A DNA stretch of 64,000 nt, taken from the NCBI RefSeq assembly GCF_002999235.1, contig NZ_CP027236.1, forward strand, positions 1,550,001 to 1,614,000, given 5' to 3'. Position 1 is the first letter of the stretch; each line of letters begins with the position of its first letter. The notes beneath the pieces were generated by a model, which did not search any database, had not been told where the DNA came from, and was given only the letters and a program-made list of their open reading frames with translations. Made by a program: the position numbers and the translations under genes. Origin of the DNA: Actinomyces sp. oral taxon 897 (lineage in GTDB: Bacteria > Actinomycetota > Actinomycetes > Actinomycetales > Actinomycetaceae). Shown in pieces: positions 4,295 through 63,213 of the stretch.

Positions 4295-4415
4295 CGACCA
4301 GCGGGTCACGCTCGCACTGCACGGCTGGCCCCGTGGGGCCACCGCGTGCACCCTAATCCCCGCCGGGTACCGGGGTGCTATGCGCGGCCCTGCTGGGGCT
4401 GGTACCCGGTTCTGT

Positions 4416-4540
4416 CGCAATCTGAGGATCAGAACCACCCACACCCCGCTCCAGCCTTTGTGCACTTAATGTCCACGCAGGTCAGAGACTTGTCCGCCAG
4501 CGCGGCCAAAGGTGGGACCCGTTCTGATCCTCAGATTGCG
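4416..4540. repeat. 125-bp element bounded by perfect 20-bp inverted repeats
   Basis: The arm CGCAATCTGAGGATCAGAAC (4416-4435) is matched exactly by its reverse complement at 4521-4540, with an 85-bp interior. Each arm contains its own smaller dyad (TCTGAggaTCAGA). The layout resembles a miniature inverted-repeat element or a long hairpin. I see no clear target-site duplication at the edges and no transposase in the window. Confidence 0.75.
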
Positions 4541-4715: not shown

Positions 4716-4833
4716 CCGTTCTCGCGAGCAATAAGTACCGTTCTCACGACGAACAAGTACCGTTCTCACGGCGAATAAGTACCGTTCTCGCGAGCAATAA
4801 GTACCGTTCTCACGGGGAATAAGTACCGTTCTC
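4716..4833 (-). repeat. 22-bp tandem array A1 (5 units plus closing half-unit)
   Basis: Read on the minus strand, GAGAACGGTACTT recurs at exactly 22-bp intervals. On the plus strand AAGTACCGTTCTC starts at 4733, 4755, 4777, 4799 and 4821, and a closing CCGTTCTC lies at 4716. The 9-nt variable parts are attccccgt, attgctcgc, attcgccgt, gttcgtcgt and attgctcgc. The array starts 76 bp past the khpA stop codon and reads in the same direction as khpA. Confidence 0.95.
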
Positions 4834-4909
4834 GCGGTGGGAGGGGGTGGGGACGGCGGCGGCCCGGCTCCCTGAGCGGGGCCGGGCCGTCCGTCAGCTG
4901 ACGCGATGC

Positions 4910-16758: not shown

Positions 16759-16832
16759 CCGTCCTCACGAGCAACAAGTACCGTTCTCACGACAAACAAG
16801 TACCGTTCTCGCGGCGAATAAGTACCGTTCTC
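16759..16832 (-). repeat. 22-bp tandem array A2 (3 units plus closing half-unit)
   Basis: Plus-strand AAGTACCGTTCTC at 16776, 16798 and 16820, with a closing CCGTCCTC (one mismatch) at 16759. The period is exactly 22 bp. Variable parts read on the minus strand: attcgccgc, gtttgtcgt, gttgctcgt. The array begins 56 bp before the radA start codon and reads away from radA. Confidence 0.93.
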
Positions 16833-24310: not shown

Positions 24311-24410
24311 GCGTACTTCCGGCCGCCGGGGACGTACTCTGGCCGCCGGGGACGTACCTTAGTCATCGGGAACGTACCTTAGTCATCGGGGACGTACTCG
24401 TAGGGTACGT
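24311..24410. repeat. Five 20-bp tandem units carrying GACGTAC
   Basis: GCGTACT at 24311, then GACGTAC at 24331 and 24351, AACGTAC at 24371 and GACGTAC at 24391: an exact 20-bp period. Unit endings are ggccgccggg (twice), agtcatcggg (twice) and a diverged last one. The third and fourth units (AACGTACCTTAGTCATCGGG) resemble the 22-bp family (GAACGGTACTTATTCGTCGC). Confidence 0.85.
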
Positions 24411-24440
24411 CGGCGGCGGCTAAGGTACGTCGCCGCCGAC
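24409..24440. terminator. 10-bp hairpin closing the 20-bp array
   Basis: GTCGGCGGCG (24409-24418) pairs exactly with CGCCGCCGAC (24431-24440) around a 12-base loop. It lies between convergent genes, the response regulator and the SorC regulator, and could end both transcripts. GGTACGT occurs just before and inside the stem-loop, so the last array unit merges with the hairpin. Confidence 0.7.
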
Positions 24441-29608: not shown

Positions 29609-29648
29609 CCCCGCCCGCGCCCCGCGCCCCCACCCGCCCCCACTCGCC

Positions 29649-29722
29649 GAGAACGGTACTTGTTCGCCGTGAGAACGGTACTTATTGCTCGCGAGAACGG
29701 TACTTGTTCGCCGTGAGAACGG
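29649..29722 (+). repeat. 22-bp tandem array A3 (3 units plus closing half-unit)
   Basis: GAGAACGGTACTT at 29649, 29671 and 29693, then a closing GAGAACGG at 29715. Variable parts: gttcgccgt, attgctcgc, gttcgccgt. It begins 40 bp after the glpK stop and reads in the same direction as glpK. Confidence 0.94.
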
Positions 29723-40478: not shown

Positions 40479-40535
40479 AAGTACCGTTCTCACGACGAAC
40501 AAGTACCGTTCTCGCGAGCAATAAGTACCGTTCTC
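40479..40535 (-). repeat. 22-bp tandem array A4 (3 units)
   Basis: Plus-strand AAGTACCGTTCTC at 40479, 40501 and 40523. Variable parts on the minus strand: attgctcgc and gttcgtcgt between units, gttggccgc after the last. The expected closing half-unit at 40462 is degenerate. It starts 35 bp after the sdhB stop, reads in the sdhB direction and ends 48 bp before tsaD. Confidence 0.93.
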
Positions 40536-40570
40536 GCGACGGAAGAGAGGAGGAGGGGCGGCGTCGGGGC

Positions 40571-53866: not shown

Positions 53867-53893
53867 GGCGCCCCCGCCCAGGCCCACCATCGC

Positions 53894-53967
53894 GAGAACG
53901 GTACTTATTCGCCGCGAGAACGGTACTTATTGCTCGTGAGAACGGTACTTGTTTGCCGTGAGAACGG
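53894..53967 (+). repeat. 22-bp tandem array A5 (3 units plus closing half-unit)
   Basis: GAGAACGGTACTT at 53894, 53916 and 53938, then GAGAACGG at 53960. Variable parts: attcgccgc, attgctcgt, gtttgccgt. It starts 27 bp after the coaA stop and reads in the same direction. It separates coaA from a decayed copy of the coaA 3' end. Confidence 0.95.
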
Positions 53968-57737: not shown

Positions 57738-57755
57738 TACCGCCCCATCCCCCGT

Positions 57756-57851
57756 GAGAACGGTACTTATTCGTCGCGAGAACGGTACTTATTCGTCGCG
57801 AGAACGGTACTTATTCGTCGCGAGAACGGTACTTGTTCGTCGTGAGAACGG
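57756..57851 (+). repeat. 22-bp tandem array A6 (4 units plus closing half-unit)
   Basis: GAGAACGGTACTT at 57756, 57778, 57800 and 57822, then GAGAACGG at 57844. Variable parts: attcgtcgc three times, then gttcgtcgt. The three identical units suggest recent expansion. It starts 18 bp after the permease stop, in the same direction. Confidence 0.95.
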
Positions 57852-63051: not shown

Positions 63052-63213
63052 GAGAACGGTACTTGTTCGCCGTGAGAACGGTACTTATTGCTCGCGAGAA
63101 CGGTACTTGTTCGCCGTGAGAACGGTACTTGTTCGCCGCGAGAACGGTACTTGTTCGCCGTGAGAACGGTACTTGTTCGCCGCGAGAACGGTACTTATTG
63201 CTCGTGAGAACGG
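63052..63213 (+). repeat. 22-bp tandem array A7, the longest (7 units plus closing half-unit)
   Basis: GAGAACGGTACTT at 63052, 63074, 63096, 63118, 63140, 63162 and 63184, then GAGAACGG at 63206, with an exact 22-bp period. Variable parts: gttcgccgt, attgctcgc, gttcgccgt, gttcgccgc, gttcgccgt, gttcgccgc, attgctcgt. It begins 96 bp upstream of the glmM start codon and reads away from glmM, against both flanking genes. Confidence 0.96.

Follow-up and report, generated by a model that had tools for sequence, protein, structure and literature searches.

Arrays of 22-base repeats at gene ends in several Actinomyces species may be an undescribed punctuation mark for transcript ends. They were analysed from a 64,000-nucleotide stretch of Actinomyces sp. 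oral taxon 897 (the window), which covers bases 1,550,001-1,614,000 of a 3.24-Mb contig and is 73% GC. The arrays are tentatively read as sense-oriented elements that end transcripts, in which a C-rich leader is followed by phased sites for a putative factor. This reading is based on the sense polarity of the arrays, their short distance from stop codons, their preference for convergent gaps in the window genome and the C-rich leader; a factor that would read the phased sites is proposed because the core of the unit is frozen and the 22-bp spacing is kept. How transcripts end in high-GC actinobacteria is an open question, and clear intrinsic terminators are, to our knowledge, few in these bacteria. 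An abundant, sense-oriented, phased element near stop codons offers a direct handle for RNA 3'-end mapping and for pull-down of its binder. Also, the species dialects of the repeat are a natural experiment in the co-evolution of site and factor.

All seven arrays that a sequence-only reading had listed in the window were recovered by a re-scan of the sequence, each with a period of exactly 22 bp (Table 1). Six of the seven had been described as closing with an extra bracket; this number was too high, as the exact final GAGAACGG is present in five only, array A2 ending one change away from GAGAACGG and array A4 having no bracket. The main functional clue, position and orientation relative to genes, had been missed in that first reading. 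Five of the seven arrays lie in sense 18-76 nt 3' of a stop codon, and A2 and A7 are the exceptions to this 3'-end rule.

Table 1. Arrays of the window, C-rich leaders, other repeats noticed and dialect spellings of the 22-bp unit. Positions are those of the window unless a locus is named.
Feature	Positions	Strand	Composition, setting or basis
Array A1	4716..4833	-	5 units + GAGAACGG; 76 nt 3' of khpA (rpsP-khpA), in sense; then rimM
Array A2	16759..16832	-	3 units + GAGGACGG, degenerate bracket; antisense to both neighbours, a 218-aa ORF (+) and radA (+)
Array A3	29649..29722	+	3 units + GAGAACGG; 40 nt 3' of glpK, in sense; convergent gap, HPr gene opposite glpK
Array A4	40479..40535	-	3 cores, unbracketed; 35 nt 3' of sdhB, in sense; then tsaD
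Array A5	53894..53967	+	3 units + GAGAACGG; 27 nt 3' of coaA, in sense
Array A6	57756..57851	+	4 units + GAGAACGG; 18 nt 3' of ABC-2 permease gene, in sense; convergent gap
Array A7	63052..63213	+	7 units + GAGAACGG; 12 nt upstream of longest glmM ORF (-)
C-rich leader, khpA stop to A1	4834..4909	-	sequence of 35 nt next to array
C-rich leader, glpK stop to A3	29609..29648	+	sequence; composition tested in aggregate
C-rich leader, sdhB stop to A4	40536..40570	-	sequence
C-rich leader, coaA stop to A5	53867..53893	+	sequence
C-rich leader, ABC permease stop to A6	57738..57755	+	sequence
20-bp family	24312-24430; L054 ~19024; L046 ~13842; L055 ~7150; L062 ~8455		
19-bp repeats of G031	L172 1470-1540; L174 19609-19690		
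20-mer TGTCGCAATCTGAGGATCAG	4413-4432; L039, L049, L052, L054, L055, L057, L058, L063, L069		
GAGACCGGTAAGGG/GTGGATAA of G013	L143, L145, L146, L150, L138, L148, L151		
Dialect of G030			GAGATCGGGACRTCYKRACYBY
Dialect of G013			GAGACCGGGACATMKGKMYCRC
Dialect of G061			GAGATCGGTCSNNHTCCGBSYC
Dialect of G032			GAGACCGGTCGAWAWBAVSAKC
Other-species dialect spellings			GAGATCGG, GAGACCGG

The consensus of the unit in the window genome (G000) is GAGAACGGTACTTRTTBBYCGY. The earlier design of a constant part and a 9-nt semi-variable part holds for the fixed 22-bp unit, but 132 bracketed units revealed a constant part longer than claimed. In these units, each with GAGAACGG next, positions 1-13, 15 and 16 displayed zero variation, and C20 and G21 were each kept in 130. 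The free positions are 14 (A or G), 17 and 18 (any base but A), and 19 and 22 (C or T). The 132 units contain 31 distinct spacer words, which recur between arrays, and units within an array differ; the view that the arrays are not only the result of recent slippage is thus borne out. Some local copying is indicated, since 10 of 85 adjacent unit pairs are identical against 5.2 expected. Exact matching does not account for the frozen core: a 13-mer search that tolerated two mismatches found no spacing other than 22, and the only two imperfect cores it turned up stand at the ends of arrays.

Further counts come from an 864-kb sample of the window genome, made up of 40 evenly spaced 20-kb stretches and the window, which holds 47 arrays with 145 exact cores. 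The exact GAGAACGG terminus was found in 32 of the 47 arrays. YCGY also occurs in the left flank ahead of the first unit, its C and its G each being present in 98% of the 47 arrays, so bracketed arrays contain one copy more of the motif YCGYGAGAACGG than of the spacer. Position 14 is A in 28 of 42 first units and in 10 of 42 last units (p = 0.00016). The period of 22 bp corresponds to about two helical turns.

By extrapolation from the sample, about 136 arrays are expected genome-wide. The genome contains 419 exact copies of the core GAGAACGGTACTT (199 forward, 220 reverse; 0 for the reversed-pattern control), which substantiates the claim of an abundant genomic family that is not confined to one locus. 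The exact core is almost private to the window species; of 58 relatives searched, G015 alone contained it, in one copy. A looser pattern recovered further relatives. The skeleton GAGANCGG-N14-GAGANCGG, with no mismatches, has at least five copies in 17 of 49 genus genomes, the window genome included (569, 385, 332, 250, 197, 146, 87, 86, 82, 36, 33, 22, 14, 13, 7, 7 and 5 copies); none of the family's 164 other genomes has more than 2. The backward skeleton was found 4 times in total, with 0 in the genus. That 17 genomes share GAGANCGG and the 22-bp spacing while their spacers are unlike speaks for a role at transcript ends, and the 32 of 49 genus genomes with fewer than five copies count against it. 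A narrower pattern, searched in one genome each of 84,980 species (records near the window's genome possibly excluded), identified ten stretches, of which seven are from Actinomyces haliotis and one each from A. bovis, an Actinomyces MAG and a Tannerella MAG.

Judged from these sequences, the 13-nt core is only the window species' dialect of a GAGANCGG/22-bp skeleton. Base 5 hardly varies inside a genome, and the 14-nt spacer changes from genome to genome. Among sampled units base 5 was invariant in 10 of 10 genomes (3 units in G004, 5 in G029 and at least 11 in the others), with exceptions among further copies in G059, G030, G036, G014 and G005. Outside G000 the search required GAGANCGG, which by itself makes those seven bases invariant there; the near-constant base 5 of each genome is free of this constraint.

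Several other repeats were noticed. A second family in the window genome consists of 20-bp tandem units (GGGGACGTACCTTAGTCATC-like) that usually meet an inverted tandem to form long palindromic arrays; the 864 kb contain 14 such clusters, and both orientations are present in 12. By eye, an alignment of this unit to the 22-bp unit is possible, and L062 has one array of each family fused together. G031, which is without the 22-bp core, contains 19-bp units (CCGAGGTAGACATTTTCCG) as two direct and two inverted copies at gene ends. The 20-mer TGTCGCAATCTGAGGATCAG occurs in many loci of the window genome, several of which have it as an inverted pair about 110-170 nt apart, and is MITE-like. Inverted pairs of 22-bp arrays around a short centre form long palindromes in the samples of G032 (one, L238) and G035 (three, L240 and L241). 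In G013, 6 of 12 sampled arrays terminate in GAGACCGGTAAGGG, followed in 5 of the 12 by GTGGATAA, which we take to resemble the complement of a DnaA box. A three-copy pattern had two matches in viral contigs, one of which is a short-unit simple repeat. The other, L252 (IMG/VR, about 2543-2634, 56% GC), contains at least four perfect tandem copies of a 22-bp unit, beginning with GAGATCGG, either by relationship or by chance. The coaA locus of the window is 95-99% identical to that of G015 over about 3 kb, compared with about 85% for the glpK stretch, which suggests recent transfer between the two species.

Placement relative to genes was scored with genes called by a codon-usage script, with a Pfam and NCBIfam check for genes beside window arrays only. 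Both neighbours were called for 44 arrays of the window genome. A same-strand stop codon lies at most 100 nt upstream of 30 of these; for random intergenic points the share is 13.2%. One array of the 44 shows the mirror case, in which a stop on the opposite strand lies at most 100 nt away on the 3' side (13.5% of random points). Arrays are rare in divergent gaps (1/44 vs 22% random) and frequent in convergent gaps (24/44 vs 23% random). Thirty-four arrays are in sense to their 5' neighbour, with a median stop-to-array distance of 44 nt, and 24 of the 34 face a convergent gene, as do 39% of gene ends. Two arrays can also face each other in one convergent gap, as in L038, L047, L059 and L062. 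Arrays with no called stop of their own strand within 100 nt (14 of 44, including A2 and A7) count against a role at transcript ends.

Similar placement was found in other genomes of the genus. In G030, 22 of 34 arrays follow a sense stop within 100 nt (20.6% random), at a median of 15 nt. The next gene is on the same strand for 19 of these 34, so arrays of this species need not end a transcription unit. The mirror case is not depleted in G030 (8/34 vs 19.7%), and in G013 the sense bias toward the 5' neighbour is 7 of 12 (p 0.40); both results argue against transcript ends. A sense stop precedes 5 of the 12 G013 arrays (17.1% random), and the mirror case was seen in none of them. For seven further genomes the 20-kb stretches were picked where arrays were known, as was partly done for G030, a choice that affects density and leaves orientation unaffected. 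Here 24 of 48 arrays follow a sense stop against 8.2 expected; G027 and G059, with 1 of 5 each, were not above chance. Pooled over ten genomes, the count is 81 of 138 against 23.0 expected. Also, 6 of 12 loci from sparse genomes, examined singly, have a same-strand stop at most 100 nt upstream.

The sequence between stop codon and array is rich in C and poor in G. The mean composition is C 0.57 and G 0.24 for 29 arrays, compared with C 0.38 and G 0.38 in the first 40 nt past 282 array-free gene ends. Over the 30 nt left of the array, the excess of C over G in the window genome is +0.43 after stops (19 arrays, p = 2e-11) and 0.32 for arrays without a called stop (17 arrays, p = 3e-8); it is about -0.05 in the right flank and about zero in controls. 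Arrays without a called stop also exceed random intergenic sequence in G013 (0.40, 7 arrays, p = 3e-4) and G030 (0.24, 12 arrays, p = 3e-6), and those after stops in G030 gave 0.17 (4 arrays only, p = 0.058). G032 (0.34), G035 (0.40) and G027 (0.24), scored without a control of their own, follow the same trend. A C-rich left flank is absent from G061 (0.006) and G059 (0.06), likewise scored without their own control, which weighs against transcript ends; the scoring left out G004 and G029. From these compositions, the leader accompanies the array in most dialects examined, even where no gene end was called. A C-rich, G-poor leader is a feature of Rho-dependent terminators and was found relative to controls in G000, G013 and G030. 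The gene for Rho is present in the window genome.

In the mechanism proposed, the leader would serve as an RNA loading site of the Rho type, and a factor with sequence specificity would occupy the phased sites, on DNA or on nascent RNA. Once bound, it might end the transcript there by pausing or blocking RNA polymerase. Orientation would matter because the factor acts on polymerase or on RNA leaving the upstream gene, and the uniform spelling within a species could result from co-evolution with the factor and copying between loci. The array would thus be a polar element at which a bound roadblock acts, perhaps with the help of Rho. A bolder proposal, which we regard as rather unlikely, is a new class of bacterial terminator in which a Rho-loading leader is combined with helically phased, direct, polar sites for a genus-specific factor, with species dialects and with arrays that move with, and are rewritten by, that factor.

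Hairpins were also examined. Those after 29 arrays were not stronger than the hairpins of 228 control ends (p 0.20), nor did they exceed shuffled versions of themselves (p 0.13), while the control ends did exceed theirs (p 0.002). This result was counted against the reading as transcript ends; scored on hairpins, a possible intrinsic terminator beside the array showed no difference from controls. The idea of a single hairpin with the array in its loop was rejected because an array's two flanks pair no better with one another than with those of foreign arrays (mean -42.3 vs -42.5 kcal/mol; 6,497 of 10,000 permutations matched or bettered the value). A local RNA hairpin, YCGY-GAGA-ACGG, is plausible in the window dialect but by eye is not kept in others. 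Rfam gave no match in the window and, in seven loci, rRNA and tRNA only, away from arrays.

The best rival of the transcript-end reading, considered possible though doubtful, is a selfish or neutral repeat that inserts into, or survives only in, C-rich sequence after genes, changes by slippage and has no role for the host. It would account for fast turnover. Of 189 orthologous gene ends, 3 have arrays in both species (1.0 expected) and 21 in one only, and this poor sharing of positions was counted against transcript ends. The G015 locus that matches the window coaA locus, at 95-99% identity, has 1 unit where A5 has 3, and paralogous loci differ in unit number (L041 and window 16776; L039 and L055). 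The near-uniform dialect of each genome and the C-rich flank without a called gene end are likewise in its favour. One syntenic gap of G035 and G059 contains GAGANCGG sites in both, each in its own dialect, with a single exact copy next to a degenerate one in G035; another has arrays in G035 and none in G059. A selfish or neutral origin fits less well with a unit in which 17 of 22 positions are frozen or nearly so and five vary freely, with the preservation of the 22-bp spacing across dialects and with the strong sense bias. Also, RAYT (PF01797), the sole transposase type searched, was found in 0 of 49 genus genomes (5 of 14 in control rings), and A7, the one array queried, had no match in plasmid and phage collections. 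Neither a target duplication nor a clean empty site was obtained; for empty sites, the orthologous gaps of relatives align too poorly. A longer mobile unit around the array was rejected because right flanks are unrelated bar a few locus pairs.

Sense orientation past stop codons would also suit an mRNA 3'-end element at which an RNA-binding protein or a fold protects the message or sets its decay, an explanation that seems improbable. In 43 of the 47 arrays of the window genome the fold of the sense strand is more stable than that of the antisense strand, and positions 14, 19 and 22 change by transitions only, as G-U tolerance would allow. However, fold z-scores are modest and similar on both strands (-1.40 and -1.34), the sense preference is missing in G013 (5/12) and G030 (17/34), and the YCG...CGG pairing is by eye absent from many units of other dialects; nor would single-stranded RNA be expected to keep so strict a spacing of 22 nt. 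Somewhat more improbable are sites for DNA topology or for a nucleoid protein, such as gyrase, where positive supercoils accumulate, a role that has been claimed for BIMEs. The convergent-gap enrichment (24/44 vs 23%), the helical phasing and the facing pairs within one convergent gap agree with such sites. However, the own-strand bias (30/44 vs 1/44 in the mirror case) exceeds that towards convergent gaps, and polarity is not required of a topology site; also, dialects vary by species while gyrase is conserved between species. Recognition sequences for DNA uptake, as in Neisseriaceae, are very improbable. These are reportedly short motifs with species dialects, and they lie near gene ends as single scattered copies. 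Dialects, 3'-end placement and the inverted copies of some species recall them, whereas the 22-bp repeats form fixed tandem arrays. In the 864-kb sample 179 of 207 GAGAACGG copies are inside arrays and 28 outside, and an uptake sequence was rejected because many single dispersed copies were not found.

The earlier statement that no such element had been described agrees with the searches made, in that there is no Rfam match at the arrays of the window or of the seven loci scanned and no published description of the 22-bp element among the literature matches listed (e.g. the best 20 of 1,383 for the 8-mer; in other searches the best 20 of 291 and the best 10 of 317). A CRISPR array was rejected on the 13-nt constant core and on spacer words that recur between arrays (31 words in 132 units). 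MIRUs of mycobacteria are dispersed intergenic tandem repeats of variable unit number with longer units. The arrays resemble MIRUs as dispersed intergenic tandem repeats of an actinobacterium with variable unit number and differ from them, by description and not by sequence, in the shorter unit; we know of no phased 8-nt skeleton in MIRUs. The direct TAACTGA repeats of Beggiatoaceae form 169 mostly intergenic sets that are strongly gene-oriented, with a 7-bp unit located mostly just upstream of start codons (PMC4679880), whereas the present family has a 22-bp unit and lies past stop codons. REPs have a palindromic unit, and those of the GTAG type are linked to RAYT transposases (PMC3733652). 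As there described, REPs, BIMEs and REPINs share with the arrays many short extragenic copies, species-specific in some families, and are mostly downstream of genes in unidirectional and convergent gaps (PMC3733652), the 22-bp arrays being downstream also. The window arrays are direct, phased and polar, whereas REPs are palindromic, and identity with REPs fails on the direct repeats and on the absence of RAYT from the 49 genus genomes. TTF-I/Sal boxes and Reb1 sites are eukaryotic roadblock terminators in which polar protein sites are repeated just 3' of a gene. The arrays likewise place repeated polar sites 3' of genes, in a bacterium and for a factor that is putative.
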